Source: Thermococcus sp. (lineage in GTDB: Archaea > Methanobacteriota_B > Thermococci > Thermococcales > Thermococcaceae). From it: 39,854 bases of DNA. Position numbers and translations under genes: made by a program. Where the stretch lies: NCBI GenBank assembly GCA_015523195.1, contig WAKU01000081.1:1-39854 (forward strand), read 5' to 3'. Numbering within the stretch: the first letter of the stretch is position 1; each line of letters starts with the position of its first letter. Shown here piece after piece: positions 7,400 to 22,684 of this stretch. The notes beneath the pieces are model-generated. The model searched no databases. It had not been told where the DNA came from and saw only the letters and a list, made by a program, of their open reading frames with translations.

Positions 7400-7533
7400 A
7401 AAACCACCCAATGAATGTATACCAAATGGGGGATAAATAATTTGCCATTTAACATGAGATTACGGTTTCACCGCAACGCTAAAATACTTCAACTAGTAAT
7501 TACGCAGGGGATAGAGTCGCAGGTGGGATGGCC

Positions 7534-10500
7534 ATGACTAAGGATAAAGCCGAGAAAATTAGGACTGTTCTTGGAGAGCTTGAAAAGGGTATCAAAACTG
7601 GAGAAGCCGTTAAAGCCTTCCGCGAGATTTTCACGAGGTTCTGGGGATTTAGTTATGAAGACGAGGATATAGAAAGGGATTACCTCGACAGCTTTGTTGA
7701 AGAGAACACCGGGGCTTTAAAAGTCATTGCCATCACTAAACCTGAAGAGGGAGCTGAGTTCTTTATAATCTACGGTGAGACCTGGAGCGACACCGTGAAA
7801 TACAGGCAGAGGTTAATAAAGAAGCTCTTGGAGTTCACAGGTTCCCTGGGGCTTGACTTTGCGAACTTCCTCCTCGTTCTCGACGTTAAGAAATCGCCCA
7901 GAGGCCCCCGCAAGTTCTGGAAGCTTATCGTCCCCGTCTACCAGAGGCACCTGGAGAGCACGAAGCTCAACATTTACACCATTGACCCGGAGGACAAGAA
8001 GCTCCGAACTTTGGCATGGAATCTGGCCCAGGTCGCAGAGGAGCTTGAAAAGAAAAAGAAAGTGCCCCCTGCAAGTGAGATCAGGGCCCTGATAAACGAA
8101 CACATGCTCGTGCAGCCGCTGACCGAACAGTTCTTTGAGGACTACAAAAAGTACTATCTGAAGCTCAAGGAGTGGATAAAGGCCAATTATGGCGATGCCT
8201 TGAGAAAGGCCTGTCCGAAGGACTACCTGTCAACCGTTGACGAATCTGTGAAGGTTTCGAGAGACAAGGCGGAGGAGATTTTCGTGGAGAGGGCCGCCAA
8301 GACGTTCGCCCACACCTTCTTCAACAGGCTCATGTTCGTCTACTTCCTCCAGAAGAAGGGATGGATGGTCAATGAAAAATATGTTAAAACGGACTTTGAG
8401 AAGGCAGCGCTATTAAACCGCAGGAGGTTCATAGTCTGGTTATGGGAAATCTACGATGATCTAAAACATTCGGGGGAGCTCTCGGGGTTTTACAAGGATA
8501 TCCTGAGGAATCTCTTCGTGAACGTCATGAACAAACCCCGCCAAGATAGGCGTTTTGAACCTAAGCTCCCGAATAAGATATTCTACCCTTTCCTGCTCGT
8601 TCCTTACTTTAACGGTGGCCTGTTTAAGAACGTCAGAATTGAGAGCGTTGATCTCGATGAAATGATTAAAGACATCGATGATAAATTGATCAGGGACGTA
8701 ATATTCGACTTCTTTGAGGGTTACAACTTCACCGTCACCGAGGAGACCCCCTACGAGGTCGAGGTCGCCGTTGACCCGGCAATGCTCGGCAAAATCTACG
8801 AGTCCCTCATCGCGGAGGAGGAAAAGGCCGGGGAGGAAGAGGAGAGGAGGGCCTCAGGGATATTCTACACCCCCAGGGCAGAGGTTGACTTCATGTGCAG
8901 GATGGCAGTCTACCAGTACCTCCTCAGGAACACGGGGGTTGAGGAGGAGCTCGTGAGGGAGTTCGTCTTCACGCCCGCCCACGAGTGGGAGCCGGGGAAG
9001 CTGTCATGGGGAGAGATTGAGGACTTTGAAAAGGCACTCAACGAGGTTAAAGTCGTTGATCCTGCCGCTGGAAGCGGCGCTTTCCTCGTTGGAATGCATC
9101 ACCTCCTCATTGAGCTCCACGAGAAGCTGACGGAGGACAGCAGGGCCACCTACAAGAAGAAGCTTGAGATAATCAGGGACAACATCTACGGTGTTGACAT
9201 CAAGGAGTGGGCGATAAGGGTTGCAAAGCTCAGGCTCTGGCTGGCCCTCATAGAGGAAGAGGAGAGACTTCCAAACGAGCCGATACTGCCCAACCTTGAG
9301 ACGAAGCTGACTGTTGGGGATTCCCTTGCACCTCCCCACTTCGTTCTGAAGGTCAGTGGGAGAAAGAAGGTGGTTGAGATACCCCTCGCCAAGTTCCGTG
9401 AGGGCCTCAAGCTTCTTGGTGCAAGGAGGGGCGCCAGCGAGGCCATAGTAGCCTACAAGGGACTCGTGAGGAAGTACTACATGGGCGAGAAGATAGACGG
9501 CAAGGCCGTAACGCTTAGGGACATAGAGAAAGCCAAGTGGGGAGTCCTCCAGGAGTTCCTTGAGATGGCCCTCGAAGAGGAGCTGAAAGCGAAAGAGAAG
9601 AAGGAAGTCAGACTGCTCCTTGAGGCAGTGAAGAAGGAGGACTTCTCCGCCCTCGAGAAGCCTCCGTTCATCTGGGAGCTCGACTTTCCGGATGCCATGC
9701 TCGAAAAGAAGGGCTTCGACATCGTGATAGCTAACCCGCCCTATGTGAGGCAGGAGAAGATCTACCCCGAGTACTACGATTTAGCCGAGTTCCAGATGCT
9801 CCCCAAGAAGGAGCAGGAGAGGTTGAAGAAGGACTACAAGAACAAGATAAAGACCCACATGGAGACAATCATAAAGGAGAAGTTCAAGGGCGAGATGAAG
9901 CTCCCGGGCAGGAGCGACCTCTACGCGTACTTCTTCATCCAGTCGGTCAACCTGCTGAACCCGAAGGGCTCGCTTGTCTTCATCACATCTAACTCTTGGC
10001 TCGACGTTGACTTCGGAAAAGCTTTACAGGAGTTCTTCCTCCGCTTCACCCACCTGAGGGCGGTGATTGACTACACGAGGAGAAGCTTCGAGCAGGCTGA
10101 TGTCAACACCGTGATAACCGTCCTCACGAGGAAGCCCAAGGAGCTTTTCAACACGGTTGGGGAGGAGTGCGTTAACTTCATTCTGCTGAAGAGGGGGTTC
10201 GAGGGGGTTGATTCCAAAGTCTCAAAGAAGCTGCTCGAATGCTACACCGGAAAGGTGAAGGGCGTAGAGGTGTTTGGGGGTAAGGTCTACAGCTACGAGG
10301 ACGATGAGGCGAGGATAAGGAGCGTAAAGGCGGTGGAGCTCGCCAAGATGGGCGGATTTGAGGTCGGGAAGAGGAACCCCCTCCTCGGCACCTACAACAT
10401 ATTCGGCGAATACAGCGGCATGAAGTGGGGCGGAATCCTAATCAGGGCGCCGAGGATATTCTACGTGATTCTGGACAAGGGCAAAGGAAAACTTGTGAGG

Positions 10501-11379
10501 CTTGGAGAGATTGCTGATGTAGAAACTTATCTTAACACTGGTGGGGCAGATAAATTTTTTATTGTGAAAAAAGTTAGGGACATTGGAAACAATTATGTAG
10601 AAATAGAGAATACAGAATTCAAAAAAACTTTCCTAGTTGAAGCCCAGTTTCTGAGACCTCTTGTTAGAAGTCCCAGAGAGTTAATAAAGCGTATTGTCGA
10701 GCCAAATACCCAATATTACATTCTTGATATTCCTCCAGATATCGATGTCACAAAATACAAAGTTTATGAATACATAAAGTTTGGAGAAGAAAAGGGATAT
10801 CATAATCGTTCAGGTCCAAGAAGCAGAACTCCTTGGTGGAAGTTGCCAAAACAAGCAAGAGAAGGAGCACCTATTTTGTTCCCTAGAAGTTTTAATATTG
10901 ATTTCGCTATCTTTTACAATCCCCATAGAGTTGTCAGTAATAGGTTCTTCAGAATTACCAAGCTCAAAGTTGATGAAGTGTGCATGTACTTATCCCTAAA
11001 TTCAACGTTAAACTATCTTATGTTGGAGGTTTTTGGAAGAAAAAACTTAGGAGAAGGCGCGTTGGAATTCTTAAAGCCAGATATTGAAGGACTTCCAGTG
11101 TTTACTGCCTTAGATGAATGTAATGTAACCATATTAGATCCCATTAGAAGAACTGTCTTTGAGGAGCTCGGCCTTCCAAAGCCCAACCGCGACTTAAGCA
11201 ACATCAACCCCGAAGAGGTCTCCCTCGACAAGGTTCTCCCTGACAGGCGCGAGCTCGACAGGGTCATCTTCGAGGCCCTCGGCATGACGGAGGAGGAGCA
11301 GCTTGAGGTTTACAAAGCCGTTGTGGAGCTCGTGAAGGCGAGGCTGGTGAAGGCGAAGACGTTTTCGAAGAGGAGGTGA
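7534..11379 (+). CDS. Large N6-adenine DNA methyltransferase (Eco57I/type IIG-like)
   Basis: A 1281-residue protein. The N-terminal ~200 residues are a mixed alpha/beta region (FFIIYGETWSD) like the sensing or degenerate nuclease part of type IIG enzymes. An all-helical region follows, then the SAM-binding motif DPAAGSGAFLVG (about residue 509) and catalytic NPPYVRQ (about residue 734), which indicates methylation of adenine N6. The last ~450 residues should hold the target recognition domain. The ATG at 7534 is better spaced from GGTGGG than the ATG at 7528. It is followed by two unknown genes at 18- and 20-base gaps. Bases 10490-11160 are clearly more AT-rich than the flanks, suggesting exchange of the recognition domain. 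It could be type IIG, DISARM-like or BREX-like; none is proven. Confidence 0.88.
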   Translation: MTKDKAEKIRTVLGELEKGIKTGEAVKAFREIFTRFWGFSYEDEDIERDYLDSFVEENTGALKVIAITKPEEGAEFFIIYGETWSDTVKYRQRLIKKLLEFTGSLGLDFANFLLVLDVKKSPRGPRKFWKLIVPVYQRHLESTKLNIYTIDPEDKKLRTLAWNLAQVAEELEKKKKVPPASEIRALINEHMLVQPLTEQFFEDYKKYYLKLKEWIKANYGDALRKACPKDYLSTVDESVKVSRDKAEEIFVERAAKTFAHTFFNRLMFVYFLQKKGWMVNEKYVKTDFEKAALLNRRRFIVWLWEIYDDLKHSGELSGFYKDILRNLFVNVMNKPRQDRRFEPKLPNKIFYPFLLVPYFNGGLFKNVRIESVDLDEMIKDIDDKLIRDVIFDFFEGYNFTVTEETPYEVEVAVDPAMLGKIYESLIAEEEKAGEEEERRASGIFYTPRAEVDFMCRMAVYQYLLRNTGVEEELVREFVFTPAHEWEPGKLSWGEIEDFEKALNEVKVVDPAAGSGAFLVGMHHLLIELHEKLTEDSRATYKKKLEIIRDNIYGVDIKEWAIRVAKLRLWLALIEEEERLPNEPILPNLETKLTVGDSLAPPHFVLKVSGRKKVVEIPLAKFREGLKLLGARRGASEAIVAYKGLVRKYYMGEKIDGKAVTLRDIEKAKWGVLQEFLEMALEEELKAKEKKEVRLLLEAVKKEDFSALEKPPFIWELDFPDAMLEKKGFDIVIANPPYVRQEKIYPEYYDLAEFQMLPKKEQERLKKDYKNKIKTHMETIIKEKFKGEMKLPGRSDLYAYFFIQSVNLLNPKGSLVFITSNSWLDVDFGKALQEFFLRFTHLRAVIDYTRRSFEQADVNTVITVLTRKPKELFNTVGEECVNFILLKRGFEGVDSKVSKKLLECYTGKVKGVEVFGGKVYSYEDDEARIRSVKAVELAKMGGFEVGKRNPLLGTYNIFGEYSGMKWGGILIRAPRIFYVILDKGKGKLVRLGEIADVETYLNTGGADKFFIVKKVRDIGNNYVEIENTEFKKTFLVEAQFLRPLVRSPRELIKRIVEPNTQYYILDIPPDIDVTKYKVYEYIKFGEEKGYHNRSGPRSRTPWWKLPKQAREGAPILFPRSFNIDFAIFYNPHRVVSNRFFRITKLKVDEVCMYLSLNSTLNYLMLEVFGRKNLGEGALEFLKPDIEGLPVFTALDECNVTILDPIRRTVFEELGLPKPNRDLSNINPEEVSLDKVLPDRRELDRVIFEALGMTEEEQLEVYKAVVELVKARLVKAKTFSKRR

Positions 11380-11397: not shown

Positions 11398-13218
11398 ATG
11401 GATGAGTCCGTTCTCATTATTTATACCCCTTTAGGATCTGAAGTGGAACTTCCAACTATTGAAGAAAATCCCGAAAAGTATATGAAAATAGAACAGCTAA
11501 AAGGAGCTAACGCTGAAAGGTTTATCAAATTTTTGGAGGAGAATATTAGAACCCTAGTTAAATCTTGGTATCCGCCTAAACACATTAGAAACCACACACT
11601 CAAAAGAAAAGTTTCAGAAATTATTTCTTCAGAGTCTCAAGAGATAAAAAGGATAATCCTTAGGGATATTTTATTTGATTTCCTTAAACATGGAACTGCG
11701 ACATCTATGCGAGCTGAAGGGAAGTATGTCGTTGCAATAGCATATTCCAATGTTCTTTACTTACTCCACAGTAAGCTTAAAGAGGAAAGTGCTGTCATGG
11801 AAAAACCAGGTCAGGTCAATGTTTATGAACGGTTTTTGGATAGAGACAACATTTATCGCTTTGTAATATTTCAAAAAGAGAGCGAACAATTGAGAACTGG
11901 GGTATACTTGAAGCATTCGTCCAACAAAACATTCCTTAGTTGGTTGGGAATTCCTGAGAAAAAATGGCCTTTACCAGAGGAATTTACTGTCAGATTCGTG
12001 GGCAAGTATGGGGATTATGAAATCTCCATTGGAATTAATAATGCTCTAATTTTTGAATTAGAACGTAACCTCCAAGGTGGAACAGCCAAAGTCGGGGATA
12101 TTGAACTAAACTTGGAGCAGAAGGTTCTGAAAATCAAAGGACTACCTCTTAGGATAAGATATGTCTCAATCCCTGCAGTACATAGGAGATTTTCAGATAA
12201 AAAACTCGTCCAGCTCTTTGAATATATAAAAGAATATCAGTACGGTATAGAGTACCAACGTGAATACATTGCCAATGTCATTAACGAACTCATGAATCTC
12301 AATCAATTTTTAGATCCAAAGAGCTTTGCCCTCAGGCCCCTGATCGAGCGAGTAGATGGGTTATATCGGAGAGTCCTATTGGATGGGGGATATGACGAAG
12401 TTCTTCTATTAGAAAAACCGGAATTTGAAGATTTTAACAGCATTTTGATCTATGCAGCGAAGAGGGTATACCAGCGTTTTATTGAGATTGACGGTGAATT
12501 CCTGGATGAGATCACAAAGAGAATAATCGGAGATGAACCAACAAACATACTCTTTGTGAAGAAAGATATCAATTTATGCTCTCCAATCAGAATTGGTAAT
12601 TTGGCAATTTATAACACAATTCCAGATGAGGACTTCATGGAGGTACTGGAATCCATTGAATGGGACAGTTTATCCCCCACTTACAAGATATTACTAAAGC
12701 TTTCCATTCTTAACTTGTTAACAACCCTCGAACCGGACTTTTGGATTTTCAATGAAGTTTTTGGATATATTGAAAAGTATATGAAACCTCTTGAATTGGG
12801 TGAAATTCCAGAAATGGAAAATATTGTTGAATATAAAGCAGCCGCTATCCTTTATGAGGACTACTCTCGCTTAAGACCAAAACCTGTAGAAAGTATCGTT
12901 TCCGAACTGGAGGAGGATGTTCTTAAAAAGCTCAATGATAATTATTTCAAGTTCTATCTTATTGGAATAGACGAAAGTACTCGCAAAGTACAACCAATAA
13001 AAAAGAGCGATTTTGGGGATGATGCATTTTTCAAAAATATTTATCAACCACTAAAAATTGAACTAGAGAAAAATGGGATCATACTATCTGAACCAAAGAA
13101 AATAATGGTTCAAGGTGGATTTCTGGTAATATTCTCTGTAAAGTGGAAAGATCCATCAATAAGAGAAAAACAAATCGCAGAGGGATTCAAAAGCCTGACA
13201 ACTTCCCATAACTTCTAA
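11398..13218 (+). CDS. Unknown 606-residue protein in the methyltransferase operon
   Basis: The gene starts 18 bases after the methyltransferase stop, behind GGAGGGAGGATGATATT, so both are on one transcript. No catalytic motif was recognised. The sequence looks soluble: an N-terminal helical part, a central beta-rich part around GKYVVAIAYSNVLYLLHSKL (residues 105-125) and GIYLKHSS-like segments, a helical middle, and a C-terminal domain from about residue 500. The base composition is distinctly AT-rich compared with neighbouring housekeeping genes, which points to horizontal transfer. A role as specificity, effector or regulator subunit for the methyltransferase is inferred from position only. 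Confidence 0.75.
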   Translation: MDESVLIIYTPLGSEVELPTIEENPEKYMKIEQLKGANAERFIKFLEENIRTLVKSWYPPKHIRNHTLKRKVSEIISSESQEIKRIILRDILFDFLKHGTATSMRAEGKYVVAIAYSNVLYLLHSKLKEESAVMEKPGQVNVYERFLDRDNIYRFVIFQKESEQLRTGVYLKHSSNKTFLSWLGIPEKKWPLPEEFTVRFVGKYGDYEISIGINNALIFELERNLQGGTAKVGDIELNLEQKVLKIKGLPLRIRYVSIPAVHRRFSDKKLVQLFEYIKEYQYGIEYQREYIANVINELMNLNQFLDPKSFALRPLIERVDGLYRRVLLDGGYDEVLLLEKPEFEDFNSILIYAAKRVYQRFIEIDGEFLDEITKRIIGDEPTNILFVKKDINLCSPIRIGNLAIYNTIPDEDFMEVLESIEWDSLSPTYKILLKLSILNLLTTLEPDFWIFNEVFGYIEKYMKPLELGEIPEMENIVEYKAAAILYEDYSRLRPKPVESIVSELEEDVLKKLNDNYFKFYLIGIDESTRKVQPIKKSDFGDDAFFKNIYQPLKIELEKNGIILSEPKKIMVQGGFLVIFSVKWKDPSIREKQIAEGFKSLTTSHNF

Positions 13219-13238: not shown

Positions 13239-13973
13239 ATGCACGAGCTCGATAAGGCGATATTTGAAGTCTTTACGGGTTCAGGAGGGACTATTGCTGC
13301 GAATCTTAAGCCATATCTCAGCCTTGCCATTGCACTATACGAGGTTTTCAAAATCGTTGTTGACTTCATCCAATGGAGGAAGAGAGAAGAAAGGAAAAGG
13401 AACCTCAAAAGATCCCTCGCACTCACGTTCCAGAAAAAGCTCGACAGGGCTCGTGATAATCTAAAAAAACTGGCGGATGATGTCTCATACGCGTTTGGAG
13501 CACTCTTCTTGTACTCCGTGGCAATACCTCCATTTGAACCTGAAGAGAAGGCCAGAGACATAATCAAACAGCTCGAAAATGACTATATTGAGATGACAAA
13601 GAGCATGAAGGAATTAATGATGTTGGTTAAGAAACACGAAAAAATGATAGTTTCAGCCCTTGAGCTGAATGGAACCCAAATTATGCTGCTCGAAGGTTTA
13701 ATCGAGGCTTTTGAAAAAGAAAAACCTGATATCGAAGCGCTAGCCGATTATCTTCCTTTAATTGTCCACGAAATGCGGAAGACCGAAAAAGAGCGAAAGA
13801 CCTTCAGCCGTGAGCTTGCTAAAGGAATAGGAAAGTTCAACTCGGCTTCCGGGCTCGTTGTGATAAACCACGCCCTCGGAATCAACCGGCGGTACAAGCG
13901 GTGCTTCAAAAAAGCCGCCAGACACGGCTTTAAAGAGTTCTCTCAGAAGTTCAATGAATGCCGATTTGGTTAA
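13239..13973 (+). CDS. Unknown helical protein, third gene of the methyltransferase operon
   Basis: A 244-residue protein 20 bases after the previous gene, starting with ATG after GAGGGT. A hydrophobic helix near residues 25-46 (YLSLAIALYEVFKIVVDFI) is followed by a strongly basic stretch (WRKREERKRNLKR), so it may touch or cross the membrane. The rest is long amphipathic helix, likely coiled coil (residues 105-200), ending in a basic tail. No known motif was recognised. Its last 23 bases overlap the end of the convergent HEPN-like gene. An abortive effector is possible, but this is inference. Confidence 0.7.
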   Translation: MHELDKAIFEVFTGSGGTIAANLKPYLSLAIALYEVFKIVVDFIQWRKREERKRNLKRSLALTFQKKLDRARDNLKKLADDVSYAFGALFLYSVAIPPFEPEEKARDIIKQLENDYIEMTKSMKELMMLVKKHEKMIVSALELNGTQIMLLEGLIEAFEKEKPDIEALADYLPLIVHEMRKTEKERKTFSRELAKGIGKFNSASGLVVINHALGINRRYKRCFKKAARHGFKEFSQKFNECRFG

Positions 13974-14556
13974 TTTCAGATAGGTTCTTCCACTGTAATC
14001 CTCTTAACGCTTTTCTAATGCAACTAACAACCGTGTCCTTACGCACTCGAAGAATATCATCCAGCTTGTCTCCGCCACCATCATCGAGTAGAGTTTCCAC
14101 AAAGGAGTACCTTCGCTGGGCTTTTTGAACATAGGATTGTGATGAGAAGCTAACTTTTTCCGAACCTCTGGGCGTTTTAATCTCCGGCTTCTCTCGCAGG
14201 TCGTAGTCGGCCGCGTTTCTCAGTTCTCTCAGATACACCATGGAATTATGGGCCTGTCTGATCCTCACGTCGTTAATTTCTTCCTTGAGTGCTTCAAGAA
14301 AGGCTATGATGACTGCGTGCGGATTCTTACCCTCAAGCGCAAGGATAAAGTCGTCAAAATTCTCGTCGCGTAGAGATTGAGGATATTTTTCCAGTCCCTT
14401 CTTTAAAACCTCTCTTAGCTGCAAAAAGGCGGAGTAATAATACCTTCCAACAACGGTTCTGTTGATAGCATCGCGAGGAGGCGTACCAGAGTCCTCGTTT
14501 AAAGAACTCAGGTAGTCCCCAACTAACTTGAACCCTTTGGGGTCAAAGTCGGGCAT
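13951..14556 (-). CDS. HEPN-like protein, probable toxin of a two-gene module
   Basis: A 201-residue helical protein. RTVVGRYYYSAFLQLREVL (about residues 33-51) and LRELRNAADYDL (about residues 109-120) resemble the conserved helices of UPF0332/HEPN proteins. RIRQAH just before the second motif would fit the Rx4H RNase signature, though its place is not typical. The ATG at 14556 follows GGTGAGAGTGAC; the upstream 34 codons of the open frame overlap the partner gene and were dropped. It follows the partner by 14 bases. HEPN proteins in such pairs are often RNases kept silent by the partner. Confidence in the fold is moderate. Confidence 0.7.
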   Translation of the reverse strand: MPDFDPKGFKLVGDYLSSLNEDSGTPPRDAINRTVVGRYYYSAFLQLREVLKKGLEKYPQSLRDENFDDFILALEGKNPHAVIIAFLEALKEEINDVRIRQAHNSMVYLRELRNAADYDLREKPEIKTPRGSEKVSFSSQSYVQKAQRRYSFVETLLDDGGGDKLDDILRVRKDTVVSCIRKALRGLQWKNLSEINQIGIH

Positions 14557-14569
14557 GTCACTCTCACCG

Positions 14570-14941
14570 TCATTCAAACAGGGAATACACGAGTATCCTG
14601 TTGGACACCTTGGGGTCCGCTGATAGGAGCTGATACTCGAAGTCCTCAGACATGTCAACGGCTTCCTCGGAATCCCTAAACTTTGCTATTATTACAACAT
14701 GGGGGTTGATACCCCCCTCTGGTGTTCCCGCAGTTACTTTTATTTCCCTGACTTCTGGCTTATTCAACCATTCGGGGAGAATCCTCCGGAGATAACCGAT
14801 TATCAGCTCTTTGTGGGGTATCGGGGTCTTAAGTAGGGATTCGAGATCCACCTTAAGCTTTCCCGTCCACTCTTCTTGAAGGCTCGAAAGGAGAACCATC
14901 TCACGGAGGAGTGGCAGCTCAATACGGCCACTTTCTTTCAT
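14570..14941 (-). CDS. Unknown small protein paired with the HEPN-like gene
   Basis: A 123-residue protein, first gene of a two-gene minus-strand operon. The N-terminal half is helical and the C-terminal half has strand-like VREIKVTAGTP and HVVIIAKFRDSEEAVDMSEDFEYQLL. The GS-x-D-x-D motif of minimal nucleotidyltransferases, the usual HEPN partner, is not present, so an MNT antitoxin is not supported. The spacing of 14 bases to the HEPN-like gene suggests an antitoxin or regulatory partner. A TATA-like sequence (GTTATAATTTTTAAG) lies just upstream around 14970-14985. Family not recognised. Confidence 0.6.
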   Translation of the reverse strand: MKESGRIELPLLREMVLLSSLQEEWTGKLKVDLESLLKTPIPHKELIIGYLRRILPEWLNKPEVREIKVTAGTPEGGINPHVVIIAKFRDSEEAVDMSEDFEYQLLSADPKVSNRILVYSLFE

Positions 14942-15019: not shown

Positions 15020-15052
15020 CCTTAAATAAATGAAGGCCCATCACTAGTGATG
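15020..15052 (+). promoter_or_regulatory. Promoter and 14-base palindrome before the ATPase gene
   Basis: CCTTAAATAAAT (15020-15031) is a TATA element. CATCACTAGTGATG (15039-15052) is a perfect palindrome placed at the expected transcription start and next to the ribosome binding site GGGGTG, where a bound repressor would block transcription. Confidence 0.5.
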
Positions 15053-15063
15053 GGGTGTTCACT

Positions 15064-16152
15064 TTGTTTAGCACACGCCCGGTTAGACACAAGAAGAACC
15101 TCCATGGAAAACAACACAAGGAAGCGGTGGAAAAGCTGAGGGAGGCTATGGAAGACGGTGACTTCGCGGCAGTCCTTGGGCCGAGAAGAGTGGGAAAGAC
15201 TAGTGTTATCAACGTTTTCTTAAATGAGTATGGCTCGGAGTACAAGTACCTCTATTATGACCTCGCATTTGGAATGGGAAGGGAGGCGATAAGCTACACC
15301 GAGCTTACGCCGGTATCAACCAACATTTCGGAGGAGGAGCTTGAGTACTCGGCGACACTTAACCTGGGTCTCGTCAAAATGGACATAAAACCCAGGGGAA
15401 TAGCGGAGTTCCAAAACGCCTTCCTAAACCTCCTGAGGTATCTCAATAAGGAGGGAAAGAAAACGGTAATCATTTTTGATGAGGCCCAAGTCCTTCCGAG
15501 ATTTGCTCCCCTGAATATGCTTGGAATGCTTCAGACTATCTCTGATGGCTTTGAAAACGTTACAGTAGTTCTGTCGGGCTCGATGCCAGGTTTGCTGGAG
15601 AGGATAATCAATCCAACGGGTGATAGGCCCTTCTTTGCGAGATACGTTGAGAGGATAAACATCCCCAGATGGGACGTTAAGGAGAGCGTGGAATACCTAA
15701 AAAAGGGCCTCCCAGATTCTTCGGAAGAGGAGCTCATGGAAGCTGCGAAGGAACTTTCCAACGTGCCAGGATTTTTGGCATATTACGGCAAGCTTAGAAC
15801 CAAGGGAAGAACCCACGAGGAAGCCCTCTCGATGACAGTTAATTACGCGGTTAAGCTCTGGAAGGAAGATTTGAGGAACTTCATCAGAATTTACAAGTCC
15901 CCCGCCTACATTATTGCCCTAAGGACTATTGCTAAAGGTCCCTCCTACGGGGTGGCGACTGAAGAGATAGTAACTGAAATAACTTCAACTTTAAAAATCT
16001 CTGAAAGGCGTGCCAAGGAAGTGTTAAAGAACCTCGTTGACGGAGGTTTTCTTGTGAAGCCCAAGAGAGGTCTCTATCAGATCCCCGAAAGGCCCCTAAG
16101 AAAAGCCGTGCTGGAGTTTAAAGCTGAAGCTTCATGGGAGGGTTATCCATGA
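15064..16152 (+). CDS. Archaeal P-loop ATPase (ATPase_2/MNS type) with C-terminal winged helix
   Basis: A 362-residue STAND-like ATPase. Walker A is GPRRVGKTS (about residue 40), Walker B IIFDEAQ (about residue 135), and VVLSGSMPG resembles sensor 1. The C-terminal region (from about residue 285, IAKGPSYGVATEEIVTEI to GLYQIPERPLRK) is a winged helix. The TTG at 15064 was chosen because GGGGTG lies five bases before it and the protein then begins LFSTRPVR, like family members; a GTG at 15055 is possible. Its stop overlaps the ATG of the RAMA/nuclease-like gene (ATGA). Such ATPases are common in archaeal mobile and defense loci; here it probably serves as the nucleotide-driven partner of the next protein. 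Confidence 0.8.
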   Translation: MFSTRPVRHKKNLHGKQHKEAVEKLREAMEDGDFAAVLGPRRVGKTSVINVFLNEYGSEYKYLYYDLAFGMGREAISYTELTPVSTNISEEELEYSATLNLGLVKMDIKPRGIAEFQNAFLNLLRYLNKEGKKTVIIFDEAQVLPRFAPLNMLGMLQTISDGFENVTVVLSGSMPGLLERIINPTGDRPFFARYVERINIPRWDVKESVEYLKKGLPDSSEEELMEAAKELSNVPGFLAYYGKLRTKGRTHEEALSMTVNYAVKLWKEDLRNFIRIYKSPAYIIALRTIAKGPSYGVATEEIVTEITSTLKISERRAKEVLKNLVDGGFLVKPKRGLYQIPERPLRKAVLEFKAEASWEGYP

Positions 16153-17054
16153 AACTCCTCCTTAAAGATTGCGTTAGGTATGTTCCACACGAATACAAGA
16201 ACGAGGCCGAACTTGAGGCCATGGTCTTCGAGCATTATCGAGTGATCTTTGGAGAGAACTCATTGATTTTCCCAAAGAAGAAAATCAAAACTCCAGCTAA
16301 CATCGGTACGATTCCAGACGCGTTCGTTGTCGATTTCAAGAGTAGGAGATGGTTCATTGTTGAGGTCGAACTCAGCAGACATCGGATTTATGAACACATA
16401 ATCCCCCAGCTAACGAAGTTTCTAAATGCTCTTAAAAATCCAAACACCAAAAACGGACTTGCCGATGCCTTCTACAACTACATAAAGACTGACCCATACA
16501 AGATAGCCCTTTTGGAATCCAATGGGATAGAGAGGGACAGGTACCGGGAGATATTGAGGATACTTGAAACTACCCCTGATGTAGTGATAATCATCGACGA
16601 GGTAACTAAAGCCGTGAGGGAAGCAGTGGAGGTGCTCTCCTATCCAGCGCACTTAATCGAGTTCAAAACCTTCGTAAGGGAGGACTCTAAAGAACTAAAT
16701 GACCACATCCATCTGTTTGAAACACTCTCCTCCACTTTTAAACAGGAAAACACTCCAGTAGGGAAACTATTCCAAAACAGAGTGCACAAAAACGAACTTG
16801 TGGATCTGATGAGGGAGGGAATAATCAGGCCAGGTTTTAGGATTTACAGGGAATACAAGGGGACCCTCTACACGGCAGAGATCCTTGAAGATGGTCGGGT
16901 GAGACTCCTCAACGACAGTACCGTTCATACAAGCCTCTCAAAGGCAGCAAGCCACATAACTAAAGGAGCAGTTAATGGATGGAGATGGTGGAAGTACAAG
17001 GATGAAAATGAAACTGAGCATGTAATTGATGACCTACGTCATAGATTTGACTAA
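16149..17054 (+). CDS. PD-(D/E)xK-like nuclease with C-terminal RAMA domain
   Basis: A 301-residue protein starting at ATG 16149 (GGAGGG six bases before). Near residue 55, PDAFVVDF followed by RRWFIVEVELS (about residues 62-72) has the strand layout D...E-x-E of PD-(D/E)xK nucleases, with E in place of the usual K; activity is therefore uncertain. The C-terminus, about residues 240-287 (YTAEILEDGRVRLLN, HTSLSKAASHITKGAVNGWRWWKY), matches the RAMA domain found with restriction enzymes and adenine methyltransferases and predicted to read modified DNA. It is translationally coupled to the ATPase before it. A modification-sensing restriction subunit is the best reading. Confidence 0.75.
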   Translation: MKLLLKDCVRYVPHEYKNEAELEAMVFEHYRVIFGENSLIFPKKKIKTPANIGTIPDAFVVDFKSRRWFIVEVELSRHRIYEHIIPQLTKFLNALKNPNTKNGLADAFYNYIKTDPYKIALLESNGIERDRYREILRILETTPDVVIIIDEVTKAVREAVEVLSYPAHLIEFKTFVREDSKELNDHIHLFETLSSTFKQENTPVGKLFQNRVHKNELVDLMREGIIRPGFRIYREYKGTLYTAEILEDGRVRLLNDSTVHTSLSKAASHITKGAVNGWRWWKYKDENETEHVIDDLRHRFD

Positions 17055-17082
17055 CAACCACTAACTTTTTATGGGTTGTTAG
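17051..17082 (+). promoter_or_regulatory. AbiEi operator: 9-bp inverted repeat flanking the TATA box
   Basis: CTAACAACC (17051-17059) and GGTTGTTAG (17074-17082) are a perfect inverted repeat with CTTTTTATGG, the TATA-like element, between them. The left arm overlaps the stop codon of the upstream gene. AbiEi antitoxins are known to bind inverted repeats and repress their own operon; binding here would block TBP/TFB access. The expected transcription start is close to the ATG at 17097, implying a leaderless mRNA. Confidence 0.65.
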
Positions 17083-17096
17083 TTAAATTGGAAACT

Positions 17097-17720
17097 ATGA
17101 AGCCCATCATTCAGTTCCTGCTTGCGGAGTTTGGAGGAAAAGTGATAACCCGTGAGGAACTTGAAAGACTGGCCTCCAGTTTCAACGAGGATCTCGATTA
17201 TCTGGTGAACTACCTGATCCAGTACCGCTACGTCGTTCGTATATTACGGGGCATCTACTACGTGAAAACGCCTGTTGAGTTTTCAACCGGAGGTTCCCCC
17301 CCAATCTATCAGCTTCTAGCCCTGGGAATGAATAAACTAACGAGGAACTGGTACTTTGGCCTCTTCACGGCCCTGATTCTGAACGGCCTCACCCACGAAA
17401 CCTACACGACGGTCTTCGTGATAAACGACAGAATCACGAGACCAAAGCCAATCAACGTGAATGGAACGCCTGTTAGGATAATCCGGAGCAGGAGGAACAT
17501 CTTTGACTTTGGGGTAGTTGCCAGGGACTCCCTCAGGTTTTCAGACCTTGAGAAGACCCTCCTGGACTTTCTCTACTTCGCCAACTACGGCACAATACCA
17601 AAGTCACTTGCTTTGAGGATATGGCGGGAGTACCGGGACAGGACCAACAAAGATAAACTTCAGAAGTATTTGATAAGATATCCTCGGTCGATAAGGATGG
17701 TGGTCGAGAATGGTCGATGA
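17097..17720 (+). CDS. abiEi: AbiEi family antitoxin / transcriptional regulator
   Basis: A 207-residue protein with an N-terminal winged helix (MKPIIQFLLAEFGGKVITREEL to VVRILRGIYYVK, about residues 1-57) and an AbiEi C-terminal domain that includes NWYFGLFTALILNG and FSDLEKTLLDFL. In type IV AbiE systems the antitoxin represses its operon and counteracts the nucleotidyltransferase toxin. ATG 17097 was preferred over TTG 17076 because the latter lies inside the operator; the mRNA would be leaderless. It overlaps abiEii by 11 bases. Confidence 0.82.
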   Translation: MKPIIQFLLAEFGGKVITREELERLASSFNEDLDYLVNYLIQYRYVVRILRGIYYVKTPVEFSTGGSPPIYQLLALGMNKLTRNWYFGLFTALILNGLTHETYTTVFVINDRITRPKPINVNGTPVRIIRSRRNIFDFGVVARDSLRFSDLEKTLLDFLYFANYGTIPKSLALRIWREYRDRTNKDKLQKYLIRYPRSIRMVVENGR

Positions 17721-18726
17721 ATCCCTCCTCATGGAGATCCGGAAGAACGAGAGAAGGGGTTTCGCCAGGTTCGTATCGGGAAAAACGGAAATTAAATCAA
17801 TAGACCTCGTGGAGTGGGACTACATAATCCACACGATTCTCAAGGAGCTTGAGAGGGATCCCCTCTTCAAGGAGAACTATATCTTCAAGGGTGGAACCTG
17901 CCTCGTAAAGTGCCACTTAGGTTACTACCGCTTCAGTAGGGACCTGGACTTCGCGTATCGGCAGGGCGATGAGCTTAGAGATATGAGCCGGAGCAGGCTG
18001 AAAAAATTCCTGAACGAAGAAACAGGCAGAATTGCTGAGATCCTGAGGTGCGTGGCCAAGGATCTGGGCCTTGAGTTTCAGTACAATAACCACAGCGACT
18101 TCAACAACCACAGGTATTTCAGTTTTCTCCTCGGCCCCGGGTGGTTTAGGGAGATAATACTCTACTCTCCCCTGGGGGAGAAGATAAAAATCGAGGTAAA
18201 TTACGCTGAAAGATTAGCGTTCAGGCCAAAAACTCTAAAAGCCCACACCCTCCTGTCCTGGAAGCGTGTTGAACTCACGCCGAAGGAGTACGAGAGGTAC
18301 ATTGAGTTTCTCGGCAACTATTATCCCGTACCCCTAACTGCCTATTCCGACAGAGAAATCCTAGTCGAGAAAGTTAGGGCCCTCCTGACGAGGAAAGAAT
18401 TCAAACTCAGGGACCTCTATGACCTTTACAAACTTCATCAGAGGGGTCTTAAGATGGCCCGTTACAGAAAAGAGATAGCTGAAAAGATCAGGGACTATCT
18501 CGACTTGAGCTCCGTTGCATCTCAAAACCTGAGGAACTCGATAGATGCCCTCAACGAGGGAAGGTTTCTCCAAAACATCGAGCCAGAGATAGAACGGGAT
18601 GTCGGGCTCATCGTTGAACCCTTCTCGAAGGAAGAGTTTTTGAACTTCGTTGAGGAGTTACGGTCGGAACTTAGTGATCTTATTGATGAACTGGAGGGAT
18701 TGGTTGGGGTGAAAACCAATGGCTGA
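17710..18726 (+). CDS. abiEii: AbiEii family nucleotidyltransferase toxin
   Basis: A 338-residue protein with the family motifs FKGGTCLV followed by RFSRDLDFAY (about residues 58-80), which contain the GG/S and D-x-D catalytic residues of a DNA polymerase beta-type nucleotidyltransferase. EILVEKVRALLTRKEFKLRDLYDLY (about residues 215-239) holds the later K and D motif. AbiEii homologues block growth by adding nucleotides to tRNA. All visible catalytic positions are intact. The ATG lies inside the end of abiEi, and the stop overlaps the helicase start by eight bases, an unusual third partner for an AbiE pair. Confidence 0.85.
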   Translation: MVDESLLMEIRKNERRGFARFVSGKTEIKSIDLVEWDYIIHTILKELERDPLFKENYIFKGGTCLVKCHLGYYRFSRDLDFAYRQGDELRDMSRSRLKKFLNEETGRIAEILRCVAKDLGLEFQYNNHSDFNNHRYFSFLLGPGWFREIILYSPLGEKIKIEVNYAERLAFRPKTLKAHTLLSWKRVELTPKEYERYIEFLGNYYPVPLTAYSDREILVEKVRALLTRKEFKLRDLYDLYKLHQRGLKMARYRKEIAEKIRDYLDLSSVASQNLRNSIDALNEGRFLQNIEPEIERDVGLIVEPFSKEEFLNFVEELRSELSDLIDELEGLVGVKTNG

Positions 18727-21700
18727 ATCGGCCATACATCTTCTCGACAAATATGGTCTCGTTGACAACAATCAGGTGAGACTAGTAGACGTCCTTAGGG
18801 AAGCTTTGACTTCGAGGGACTACAACCAGATAGACGTTGCCGTCGGTTTCCTCTTCATAAGCGGTATGAAGGAGATTCAAAACGAGCTCGAGGAGTTTTT
18901 CTCAAACGGGGGTAGGATGAGGATAGTGATAGGAAACCAGACCAATCGGGAGACGTATGAGCAGCTGAGTATGGTTTACCACTCCCTCGAAACTCTAAAG
19001 AGACTGAAGGAAAAAAGCGAAAGCGAGAAATCGGATCTGGATGAGCAGAGCCGGGACATCGAGGCCAACGCAAACTACATGGAACAGACCTTAGAGAACG
19101 AGAAATTCCTCCAAAAACTGCTGGAATGGCTCAAAGACGAGAAACTTGAGATTCGCGTCTATGTGAAGGAGTTCATGCACGCCAAAGCGTACCTCTTCTA
19201 CCCCTCAAGGGGGTCTGTTACGAGAATTGGACTGGTGGGCTCCAGTAACTTCACCTTGGCGGGATTCTCTGGGAACACAGAGCTAAACGCACTCGTTCAG
19301 TCAACGCACTTCGAGAGCCTCAAGGAATGGTACGAGGAGGTATGGAATGAGGCACTCCCCTTTAATCCCAAGCTCCTCGAAGTGATTGAAAGGAGCTGGG
19401 CAAACCAGGTTCCCGGAAACCTCCCGTTGCCATACGAGGTCTTAATTCGGGGCCTCTATGAGCTCTACAAGGAGGTACTGGAGGAGGACTCAAAATTCCT
19501 CCTGAGGAAACTGGATGAGACCCTCTATGACTTCCAGAGGGACGCCGTCAGAAGGGCCATAGCAATAGTAAACAAATATGGTGGAGTTCTCATAAGTGAT
19601 GTGGTCGGCCTTGGAAAGAGCTACATAGGCTTGGCCCTACTGGAGCACTTCTCTCTCTTCGAACTCCTCCATGGACGCTCAAAAGAAGTGGCGGTGATAG
19701 CTCCTCCGGAACTGGTTAGGTACTGGGAAGGTCTTCTCAACGAATTCCGCATTCCGGGGAAGGTGTTTTCCGCGGGTTTATTACCTCGCAGGGAACTCTC
19801 ACCTGAAAAATATCAGGAGATGGAAAATTACATTCGGAGCGTAGAGACTGTTTTAGTGGATGAGACTCACCACTATGCCAACACGAACACAAAATCCTAC
19901 AAAAACCTTCAAGAGCTCCTCACTGGCAAGAGGGCCATCCTCCTCACCGCCACCCCCTACAGGAAGCAGTACAGAGACATAATCAACCAGATTCGCCTTT
20001 TCCTGCCTGAGAGAAGACACCCATTCCCAATAACCCCCCAGACATGGGATGAACTGGTAAAAGCTATCGAAAAAGGGGAGATAGACCCATCGTACGTTCT
20101 GCGGGAGATCATGATAAGAAGAACCAGATACGACATCCTGCGCCTTTATGGAGGTAAGGGTAACTGTATAAAAGTAAAGAAGCGCAAAGAACCATTGTGC
20201 TTCCCTAAAAGAACGCTTTCAGTCCTGACGTACAAAATCTCGGAGGTCTACCCAATTGAATTCGTCCCAAAGGAGCTCGTCTCAAAGATAGCCTTTGACT
20301 CCTCAATAAAACCGGATGATATTTACACCCTCTTCCTCGCAGGTATTAGCTCCATGAAATACGCGAGGTTTGCCCTCTATGACTATGTGATACCCCACTA
20401 CAAAGATGCCGAGCCCTACAGAAGCCTGTCATCTGTTGGAAGGAACCTGAGAGGTTTAATGAGAATCCTCTACCTCAAACGCCTTGAGAGTTCATGGTAT
20501 GCCATGTACCAGACCCTGAAAAGGGACATAATAAAGACCGAGAACTTCATCAAGTTCGTGGAACACAAGTTTATCCCTGCTGGAGACGAGTTTGAGGACG
20601 TTCTCCTTGGAAAGATAAATGGAAATAGAACACCCAAGGTTCTCAGTGACGAGGAAGTTGAAGAATTCATCAAGGAATACACCATCTCAAGAACTCCACA
20701 GTACAAGGCTGGTGCCTTCAAGAGGAGCGAACTTCTGGATGACCTCCGCTACGATCTGGAAAAACTCAAGGCCATGGAAGCTGCCCTGCGGCCTCTAAAG
20801 GAATACCTCGAAAAGAATCCAGAACGGGACCCCAAATTAATGGCCCTTGCTGAAGAAGTCCAGAATCTGTGGAAGGAAGGGAAGAAAATACTGGTTTTCA
20901 GTGAGTTTGAGGAGACCGTTCAGTGGGTTTACAATGGGCTCCAGAAGATCATAGAGGATAAAGAACTCAAACGCAAGATGGCTTACGTAAGTTCGAGCAC
21001 AAAAGGGATCGCCGATAAGATAAGGCGGTTTGCACCGAAGGCTAACAGGTACGAGGAATACTTAGACAGAGAGGACGAGCTTGACGTTTTGATCTCCACT
21101 GACGTTCTCAGTGAGGGCCTCAACCTTCAGGATGCTAACGTTGTCGTTAATTACGACCTCCACTGGACTCCGATAAAGCTCATACAGCGCATAGGCAGGG
21201 TGGACAGAATAGGAACCAAACACGATGAAATTCTTGTCTACAACTTCTTCCCAGAGACCAAACTCGAGGAGAACCTGGGTTTAGTTGAGAAGGTTAGGAG
21301 AAGAATTGCGGAGTTCAACAACGCACTTGGTGCCGACGGTAAAATCCTTGAGGAGACAGAAGAGTGGAACCCGTCCGCAATAGAGGCGATTTACAGGACC
21401 AGCAACCTGGATGAGATTGAGCTTGAAACTGATAAGTCCCTCCTCTCGGTCACGACGTTTGCAGAGAAGCTTGTCAGAGAATACATGGAGTCTCACAAAA
21501 AAAGATTTGAAGAGCTGAAAAAGAGATACTCAATGAGAAGTGTCGCTCTCTCAGACTCTAATGAGCTGTACGCGTTTTTTGTTCTCTCCAACGGAGTCGT
21601 ATCCCAATATCTGATCTACCGGCTCGTCAATGGAGAATGGAAGAAGCAGAACATACCAATAGAGCAACTAATCGGCAAGACCGGGCTGTCAGAGAAAACG

Positions 21701-22165
21701 CCACCTTACAATAATGAAAAGGCCATGGATGTTTATCGCAAGGTTGCAGGGATTGCGATGAGGGACTTTAAGAGGCTCCTCAAAATAAGCGGAAGTTCCC
21801 TTGAATACAGTGAAAGGCGATCCTCCAAGTATCCCCCCAAGATCAGGTTGATACTCCAGAGACTTCAGAGCAGGCTGGAAAAGACCAAAAAGCCTGGAGA
21901 GAGGGAAGTCATCTCAAAATTATTGGATTTGATTCAGTGGGGCTACCTAAATCATGAGCCGTTTAAAGATGCACTGCTGAAGGCAAAAATCCACAGAAAC
22001 ACTCGTACGGAAGAAATAATCGAGCTTTGCCAAGAGCTGATAGACCGTTTTGGCATCGCTACCCGTCGTAAAAGTTTGCAGGAAGAGGCTAAAAAGAGAG
22101 AACTTGAGGGAACAAAACCACACATTGTCGCCGGATTATTGTTTGTACCCCGGAGTTCTTCTTGA
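18719..22165 (+). CDS. SNF2-type helicase with N-terminal phospholipase D nuclease domain
   Basis: A 1148-residue protein. The N-terminal part (about residues 30-200) is a PLD-like domain with HAKAYLF (HxK, about residue 153) and GSSNFT (about residue 172); only one HxK is seen, so activity would need a dimer. The helicase core has Walker A DVVGLGKSY (about residue 292), DETH (about residue 380), LLTATPYRK, VFSEFEETVQW, STDVLSEGLNLQ and QRIGRVDRIG (about residue 820), all of the SNF2/RapA class. The family acts on double-stranded DNA as a translocase. The start overlaps abiEii by eight bases, so it belongs to the AbiE operon. PLD-SNF2 proteins occur in several restriction-like systems, including relatives of DISARM; the core DISARM genes are absent here. 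Confidence 0.88.
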   Translation: MAESAIHLLDKYGLVDNNQVRLVDVLREALTSRDYNQIDVAVGFLFISGMKEIQNELEEFFSNGGRMRIVIGNQTNRETYEQLSMVYHSLETLKRLKEKSESEKSDLDEQSRDIEANANYMEQTLENEKFLQKLLEWLKDEKLEIRVYVKEFMHAKAYLFYPSRGSVTRIGLVGSSNFTLAGFSGNTELNALVQSTHFESLKEWYEEVWNEALPFNPKLLEVIERSWANQVPGNLPLPYEVLIRGLYELYKEVLEEDSKFLLRKLDETLYDFQRDAVRRAIAIVNKYGGVLISDVVGLGKSYIGLALLEHFSLFELLHGRSKEVAVIAPPELVRYWEGLLNEFRIPGKVFSAGLLPRRELSPEKYQEMENYIRSVETVLVDETHHYANTNTKSYKNLQELLTGKRAILLTATPYRKQYRDIINQIRLFLPERRHPFPITPQTWDELVKAIEKGEIDPSYVLREIMIRRTRYDILRLYGGKGNCIKVKKRKEPLCFPKRTLSVLTYKISEVYPIEFVPKELVSKIAFDSSIKPDDIYTLFLAGISSMKYARFALYDYVIPHYKDAEPYRSLSSVGRNLRGLMRILYLKRLESSWYAMYQTLKRDIIKTENFIKFVEHKFIPAGDEFEDVLLGKINGNRTPKVLSDEEVEEFIKEYTISRTPQYKAGAFKRSELLDDLRYDLEKLKAMEAALRPLKEYLEKNPERDPKLMALAEEVQNLWKEGKKILVFSEFEETVQWVYNGLQKIIEDKELKRKMAYVSSSTKGIADKIRRFAPKANRYEEYLDREDELDVLISTDVLSEGLNLQDANVVVNYDLHWTPIKLIQRIGRVDRIGTKHDEILVYNFFPETKLEENLGLVEKVRRRIAEFNNALGADGKILEETEEWNPSAIEAIYRTSNLDEIELETDKSLLSVTTFAEKLVREYMESHKKRFEELKKRYSMRSVALSDSNELYAFFVLSNGVVSQYLIYRLVNGEWKKQNIPIEQLIGKTGLSEKTPPYNNEKAMDVYRKVAGIAMRDFKRLLKISGSSLEYSERRSSKYPPKIRLILQRLQSRLEKTKKPGEREVISKLLDLIQWGYLNHEPFKDALLKAKIHRNTRTEEIIELCQELIDRFGIATRRKSLQEEAKKRELEGTKPHIVAGLLFVPRSSS

Positions 22166-22228
22166 TTTTTTATCATAATTTCAGGAAGATAAATAAAGAA
22201 AAGAACCGTGTACTGTAACGGGGTGGCT

Positions 22229-22684
22229 ATGATGAAAATGCATGAGACGGTGGTTGGAGCTACATTTCCAATCCCGAAGTGGTTTTTGAATAGAATAGTC
22301 GAAGAAGGTAAGACCGTCTTCGTGAAGCCGTCCACGCTGAGAGTCCAGCCCGGCATGAAAATAATCTTCTATGCCTCAAGAGAGGGGCAGGGCTGGCACG
22401 GTGAGGCGGAGGTCGAGAGTGTCGAGCACTTTACGAACGTTGAAGATATTATCAAGGAGTACAAGGAGGAGCTTTTCCTCACTCCTGAAGAGCTGAGGAA
22501 GTACGAGAGGGATAGAGCGAAGTGGCACTCCCGGGGAAGAAGGCCGAGGCCCTGGATGGTGGTTAGGCTGAAGAACATACGGAAGTACCCGAAGGTTGTC
22601 AAGCCGAAAAGATTCATCGCGGTCTCGGGAAGATATATCAAAGAAGATGAGTATAAGGAGATTTTGAGGAAGGCGGGGGTTTAA
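22229..22684 (+). CDS. PUA/ASCH-like protein, probably DUF365
   Basis: About 151 residues, with ATG 22229 or 22232 directly after GGGGTGG; the frame upstream to 22208 was excluded. The sequence (HETVVGATFPIPKWFLNRI, TVFVKPST, PGMKIIFYASREGQGWHGEAEVESVEHF) resembles archaeal DUF365 proteins and has the compact beta layout of PUA/ASCH domains that bind RNA or modified bases. A TATA-like AGATAAATAAAG lies near 22186-22197. It closes the right side of the defense island, as the EVE protein does on the left. The family name is from memory and only moderately sure. Confidence 0.65.
   Translation: MMKMHETVVGATFPIPKWFLNRIVEEGKTVFVKPSTLRVQPGMKIIFYASREGQGWHGEAEVESVEHFTNVEDIIKEYKEELFLTPEELRKYERDRAKWHSRGRRPRPWMVVRLKNIRKYPKVVKPKRFIAVSGRYIKEDEYKEILRKAGV

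Follow-up and report, generated by a model that had tools for sequence, protein, structure and literature searches.

The window, i.e., the whole 39,854-nucleotide (nt) contig WAKU01000081.1 of Thermococcus sp. (assembly GCA_015523195.1), carries a locus in which the toxin-antitoxin pair AbiE, composed of AbiEi and AbiEii, directly precedes the gene of a PLD-SNF2 helicase. The helicase is likely the DNA-cutting arm of a restriction-modification-like system that consists of an Eco57I-type methyltransferase, the helicase itself and, mostly, a DUF365 protein. In the same reading, which was drawn from sequence comparison, AbiE would be one of several interchangeable cassettes between the methyltransferase and helicase genes. 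The orphan-looking AbiE-helicase operon would thereby be placed into a defined archaeal restriction-like system.

The window is contig 81 of genome G000 (order Thermococcales), which is 87% complete. Relatives were searched in 94 genomes of this order, and 17 helicase loci were compared. A wide contig scan by peptide patterns, which were narrow, returned Thermococcales only. The family names of the genes in the slot between methyltransferase and helicase are based on Pfam and PADLOC.

Proposed core genes: methyltransferase, helicase and DUF365

7528..11379, plus strand: Eco57I-type N6-adenine DNA methyltransferase, 1283 amino acids (aa), constant partner of the helicase (Pfam Eco57I 5e-31; PADLOC REase_MTase_IIG)
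18719..22165, plus strand: predicted restriction effector of 1148 aa, a fusion of a PLD (HKD-type) nuclease with an SNF2 helicase
22208..22684, plus strand: DUF365 protein, weakly EVE-like, third recurrent component (Pfam DUF365 6e-41; EVE E 0.04)

The methyltransferase, the PLD nuclease and the ATPase are all encoded within one locus. In the helicase, a PLD/HKD domain stands at the N-terminus (Pfam PLDc_2 5e-11, RE_NgoFVII 8e-7) and is joined to an SNF2 motor (SNF2 7e-8, Helicase_C 6e-19). The motifs HAK...GSSN, GLGKS, DETHH, TATP, and QRIGRVDR are intact, in both the PLD and the motor parts, and matches to solved structures were limited to the motor domain. The methyltransferase has the NPPY and VDPAAGSG motifs.

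In 16 of the 17 loci, the helicase is preceded on its own strand and contig by methyltransferase sequence, a count that includes pieces at contig ends and two split genes; the 17th locus (G056) ends at a contig edge. At E 1e-60, the methyltransferase was detected in 16 genomes, all of which carry the helicase apart from G051, where only a contig-edge fragment is present. Outside the order, the methyltransferase is followed by the helicase in L107 and preceded by it in L108; the two genes overlap in both loci, and there is neither cargo nor AbiE. L109 has a paralogous PLD-SNF2/Eco57I pair in the same arrangement. In the proposed mechanism, the methyltransferase would mark host adenines, unmarked invader DNA would be traversed by the SNF2 motor and cleaved by the PLD domain, and DUF365 may read base marks.

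DUF365 is patchy and was found in 29 of the 94 genomes, mostly beside this helicase or a DUF499-type system. A housekeeping neighbor was considered and rejected because of this distribution. The DUF365-helicase link resembles a published archaeal partnership of EVE and SNF2-nuclease proteins (PMC7641849). DUF365 is thus linked to two kinds of SNF2-based systems, which suggests that it is a shared component of SNF2-based defense.

A four-gene system was observed in L103-L106 (G039, G004, G015, and G077), i.e., DUF1156-methyltransferase, DUF499, a small protein (178 aa) and NOV_C-SNF2 helicase; the domains were checked for L103 alone. In L103, L104, and L106, a DUF365 gene in divergent orientation adjoins the system.

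AbiE genes and their junction with the helicase

17097..17720, plus strand: AbiEi antitoxin/repressor, 207 aa, start ATG at 17097 (PADLOC AbiEi 3e-106)
17710..18726, plus strand: AbiEii, predicted nucleotidyltransferase toxin, 338 aa (Pfam PF08843 1e-24; PADLOC 3e-136)
18706..18712, plus strand: helicase Shine-Dalgarno-type motif, GGGGTGA, within the 3' end of AbiEii
18719..18726, plus strand: 8-nt overlap of the AbiEii stop and the helicase start, ATGGCTGA

The earlier note on this DNA had described AbiEi, AbiEii and the helicase, with the last two genes overlapping by 8 nt, and this was confirmed from open reading frames (ORFs) and family searches. The AbiEi and AbiEii genes overlap by 11 nt. 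AbiEii is a DUF1814-type nucleotidyltransferase with intact KGGT, DLDF, and RDLYDL motifs, and it matched the solved structures of AbiGII and 6y56 weakly. AbiEi reached only E 0.1 against Pfam AbiEi_4 and had no match in the comparison with solved structures. Its N-terminus has a winged helix-turn-helix pattern with a predicted local distance difference test (pLDDT) score of about 80, within an otherwise low-confidence AlphaFold model. The top Foldseek match of this model was AbiEi 6y8q, which is weak (E 0.056) and suggestive only. Between relatives, the ratio of nonsynonymous to synonymous substitution (dN/dS) was 0.07-0.15 for AbiEi and AbiEii, i.e., purifying selection.

The same three-gene order was found in other genomes, where the earlier note had proposed to look for it. 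The 8-nt overlap ATGGCTGA is kept in all seven loci of one clade (G000, G068, G089, G020, G056, G017, and G030), in which AbiEii is 74-91% identical to that of the window, and AbiEii and helicase are separated by 2 nt in G076a and G081a. Because the overlap recurs and both AbiE genes are under purifying selection, the three-gene arrangement is not a product of chance.

The earlier note also took the overlap to mean translational coupling and a fixed ratio of toxin and helicase. Whether or not a locus has AbiE, a Shine-Dalgarno motif of the GGTG type stands ahead of the helicase start, so helicase translation need not depend on AbiEii, and the fixed ratio is unsupported. In L107, the helicase overlaps the methyltransferase gene, likewise by 8 nt, which indicates that the helicase tends to overlap any preceding gene.

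Separability of AbiE and helicase

18910..19000, no strand: recombination breakpoint, about 200-280 bp into the helicase gene (sliding nucleotide identity, protein windows, and topology test)

AbiE of the window family is intact before the helicase in 9 of the 17 loci, another AbiE occupies this place in one (G073), and none is intact in the remaining seven. The earlier note had named related genomes with the helicase under its own promoter and no AbiE nearby as the case against its view, and helicases without an intact AbiE nearby were found. Those of G018, G047, and G032, which lack an intact AbiE, are 89-92% identical; more distant ones (62-65%) in G035, G012, and G081b also lack it, as does the disrupted helicase copy of G076b. 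AbiE scars or fragments are retained in four of these seven loci (G018, G047, G076b, and G081b). Conversely, window-family AbiE without an adjacent helicase was found in G086, G082, G083, and G012, although contig ends limit the statement for G082 and G083. In two of these cases, relics of the same system lie beside AbiE, i.e., the recurrent slot protein P244 in G086 and a methyltransferase tail in G012.

In the second copy of G076 (L076, 6354-11595), ORFs of 390 and 144 aa separate the two halves of a split helicase gene. The near-identical genome G081 has a full-length copy.

The two parts of the junction have different histories. AbiEii of G000 is 91% identical to that of G056, whereas the helicases are 71% identical; against G068, the values are 74% for AbiEii and 90% for the helicase. 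Maximum-likelihood trees of AbiEii and of helicase residues 100 onward rejected each other in the approximately unbiased (AU) test (p 1e-41 and 3e-7). The breakpoint, to which the AU test also contributed, separates G020/G056-like sequence upstream from G018/G068-like sequence downstream, and the window is a mosaic. Most simply, homologous recombination would have exchanged the AbiE cassette along with the helicase 5' end.

An obligate AbiE-helicase unit was rejected by presence and absence, scars and tree conflict. The earlier note suggested that the three genes could be one system, i.e., AbiE with DNA-sensing hardware added; the helicase would then detect DNA on behalf of the toxin. Although the order and the 8-nt overlap are conserved in seven genomes and no convincing internal promoter precedes the helicase, this explanation is very improbable. 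Seven helicase loci have no intact AbiE, four AbiE loci have no adjacent helicase, the two trees conflict, and the helicase is paired with the methyltransferase wherever the contig permits a check. The idea of added sensing hardware therefore found no support: the constant partner of the helicase is the methyltransferase, AbiE-less loci exist, and the window is recombinant at the helicase 5' end.

Operator and transcription

17050..17083, no strand: predicted operator/promoter of AbiEi, a perfect inverted repeat of 10 bp, ACTAACAACC...GGTTGTTAGT, whose loop contains TATA-like TTTTTATG (17066-17073)

The inverted repeat is located 14-47 nt before the AbiEi start. Ahead of 11 AbiE cassettes, some with a helicase and some without, the palindrome and the TATA-like box are preserved either identically or almost so. 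The proteins of these cassettes are as little as 65% identical, and the DNA further upstream is not conserved. The site occurs once in the searched part of the window's genome. The palindrome was assigned as the predicted AbiEi operator because Streptococcus AbiEi represses its own promoter via inverted repeats (PMC3985639, PMC7319586). AbiE would thus repress itself through the palindrome over its TATA box.

No convincing promoter was found directly before the helicase in AbiE-bearing loci, as a simple scan for TATA and B recognition element (BRE) sequences gave no candidate above random; the scan is crude, since the site of AbiEi itself also scores modestly, and its result is weak evidence. 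With one palindromic operator upstream of AbiEi and no convincing internal promoter, co-transcription of AbiE and helicase is plausible, and with it control of the helicase by AbiEi. The suggestion of the earlier note that AbiEi repression would silence the helicase is therefore retained as plausible, with read-through from the promoter of the upstream AAA-type ATPase gene (AAA365) as the alternative.

A stronger form of this control is unlikely. In it, AbiE joined to the helicase start would have put the restriction nuclease under AbiEi, and the antitoxin would act like the C-protein of classical restriction-modification systems. Cutting would be delayed until DNA is methylated, and the loss of AbiEi, e.g., in infection, would free both toxin and nuclease.

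Variable slot between methyltransferase and helicase

11398..13218, plus strand: P606, cargo of slot 1, no family match, replaced in relatives by Kiwa-like, OLD-like or AAA_15 genes
13239..13973, plus strand: P244, recurrent gene that separates the two cargo slots, family matches unconvincing
13951..14658, minus strand: third gene of an unannotated module of three genes on the reverse strand, 85% identical to the 218-aa protein of L068, no Pfam match
14570..14941, minus strand: gene 2 of the same module, truncated (123 vs 179 aa)
15055..16152, plus strand: AAA-type ATPase (AAA365), 365 aa, cargo, neighbor of RAMA (PADLOC PDC-S27-like), also in G047 and G076a
16134..17054, plus strand: RAMA-domain protein, 306 aa, cargo (Pfam RAMA 2e-15; PADLOC PDC-S14-like C-terminus)

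The compared loci follow one map, i.e., methyltransferase, then P606 or KwaA-KwaB-P301 or OLD-like or AAA_15-P161, then P244, a second slot, helicase, and DUF365, with not all elements present in each locus. The second slot holds the unannotated reverse module, MNT/HEPN, PIN, AAA-RAMA, AbiE, or another AbiE. PIN, Kiwa-like, OLD-like or P606 genes are placed further upstream of the position directly before the helicase, and some AbiE-less slots hold only decayed pieces. Unrelated defense genes have thus been exchanged within a conserved core locus, as the map and the scars record ('guilt by embedding').

The unannotated module encodes proteins of 195, 179, and 218 aa in L068. The copy in the window is a remnant, as it lacks gene 1 (195 aa) and has only a truncated gene 2. 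The module had no family match, and 'HEPN-like' is a working label only.

In G073 (L071, 9061-10712), the position before a helicase of this family is taken by an unrelated AbiE pair, whose AbiEii is about 30% identical. AbiE therefore seems to have entered the slot at least twice.

A KwaA/KwaB-like pair was observed directly after the methyltransferase gene in L061, L063, L065, L066, and L075, usually with a third protein of 301-333 aa. The KwaB match was slightly under the Pfam cut-off, and the pair is possibly an archaeal Kiwa variant.

A perfect 16-bp palindrome, CCATCACTAGTGATGG, lies at 15038-15053 between a TATA-like box and the AAA365 gene start. A similar sequence (AGTGAT.GGGTGTTCACTT) was seen upstream of AbiEi in the helicase-less G012, G086, and G082. 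It may have been left behind by an AAA-RAMA pair since lost, or it may be a regulatory motif common to both.

Possible role of the AbiE cassette

AbiE may either make loss of the locus costly (addiction) or halt growth once the core has been overcome (backup). A purely selfish addiction cassette, which neither regulates nor aids the restriction core, is possible. Its own operator and promoter are kept with and without helicase, the cassette outlasts decay of the core, and AbiE helps stabilize an integrative element of Streptococcus suis, there via the antitoxin (PMC11062541). A selfish cassette does not readily explain why insertion recurs at a single site, immediately 5' of the helicase and linked to its start codon. 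The site gathers mostly toxin-antitoxin and defense genes, which together with the repeated insertion suggests selection for position.

A backup abortive-infection arm, which would act when an invader blocks the restriction core, is an equally tentative proposal. The exchangeable set (HEPN/MNT, PIN, and OLD-type) is of the kind described as backup effectors in BREX and BREX-related loci (PMC12839542), but AbiE also survives without the core. Addiction and backup were given equal weight, as the data do not decide between them.

Several points weigh against a restriction-like core with exchangeable cassettes. Within one clade, the AbiE-helicase junction is nucleotide-exact, and no other cassette stands directly 5' of the helicase as often as AbiE; each of these possibly reflects a functional tie. 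The helicases of G073 and G035, and the second copies of G076 and G081, have no DUF365 beside them. G076 and G081 are near-identical, so not every helicase locus counts as independent. The AlphaFold models are poor (mean pLDDT 59 for the helicase and 58 for AbiEi), are not usable beyond the AbiEi N-terminus, and contribute little. Furthermore, DUF499 and DUF3780, both parts of the best-described related systems, had no Pfam match among the scanned island proteins, the rest of the genome not being scanned.

For the restriction-like core, the locus is of value in two respects. Recombination exchanges toxin-antitoxin modules at a single, constant place flanked by the methyltransferase and nuclease genes, and traces of earlier occupants can still be read there. 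The same helicase family with AbiE, other AbiE, MNT/HEPN, AAA-RAMA, or decayed pieces forms a natural series for asking whether embedded modules are passengers, backups or regulators.

Comparison with known systems

The AbiE pair shares with type IV toxin-antitoxin AbiE (Dy et al. 2014, PMC3985639) the AbiEi repressor/antitoxin, the AbiEii nucleotidyltransferase, the overlapping genes and the promoter inverted repeat. In contrast, the pair in the window is embedded between two restriction-like genes, is joined by overlap to a helicase, has an archaeal TATA-box operator, and encodes a putative toxin.

BREX-related type 2 consists of DUF499, DUF3780, N6-methyltransferase and HKD-SNF2 helicase (PMC12839542). 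Common features are the N-terminal PLD/HKD domain on the SNF2 helicase, the N6-adenine methyltransferase partner and embedded HEPN/MNT, PIN or OLD genes, whereas the window has an Eco57I/IIG-like methyltransferase and DUF365. The island was not assigned to this type because DUF499 and DUF3780 were not found in it; DUF499 was found instead in the separate four-gene system of L103. BREX and DISARM, which the methyltransferase and DrmD-like scores had brought into consideration, were rejected, as their remaining core genes were not found among the scanned island proteins.

An archaeal system of EVE, SNF2-nuclease, COG1743 methyltransferase and DUF499 (PMC7641849) likewise combines a small EVE-like protein with an SNF2 helicase-nuclease and a methyltransferase. 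In other Thermococcales, DUF365 also accompanies the four-gene system, which is of this kind (L103, L104, and L106). However, the methyltransferase of the window is not of the DUF1156/COG1743 type, and DUF499 is missing from the island. CglI and NgoAVII (PMC4267653, PMC5737866) also have a methyltransferase, a PLD nuclease and a helicase-type ATPase, with ATP-dependent restriction. Nuclease and ATPase are separate proteins there but fused here, with an SNF2-type motor.

The best library matches of the helicase were PADLOC C3a139 'HKD+Snf2' (3e-58) and the PLD anti-phage protein NCBIfam NF042964 (1e-39), which have the same domain order. Assignment as an NF042964 equivalog was rejected, with 136 bits against the curated cut-off of 1100.

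For BREX and its related loci, embedded backup effectors of the same kinds have been described (PMC12839542). PMC12988326 cites embedding as a principle of discovery and refers to embedded defense genes (Payne et al. 2024 preprint). As cited there, unrelated defense genes lie within a conserved core locus, as they do here; the host described in that citation is Hma, whereas the core here is the Eco57I-methyltransferase/PLD-SNF2 pair. The locus is best read as a version of this known embedded defense theme, with an exchangeable AbiE cassette in a restriction-like core.

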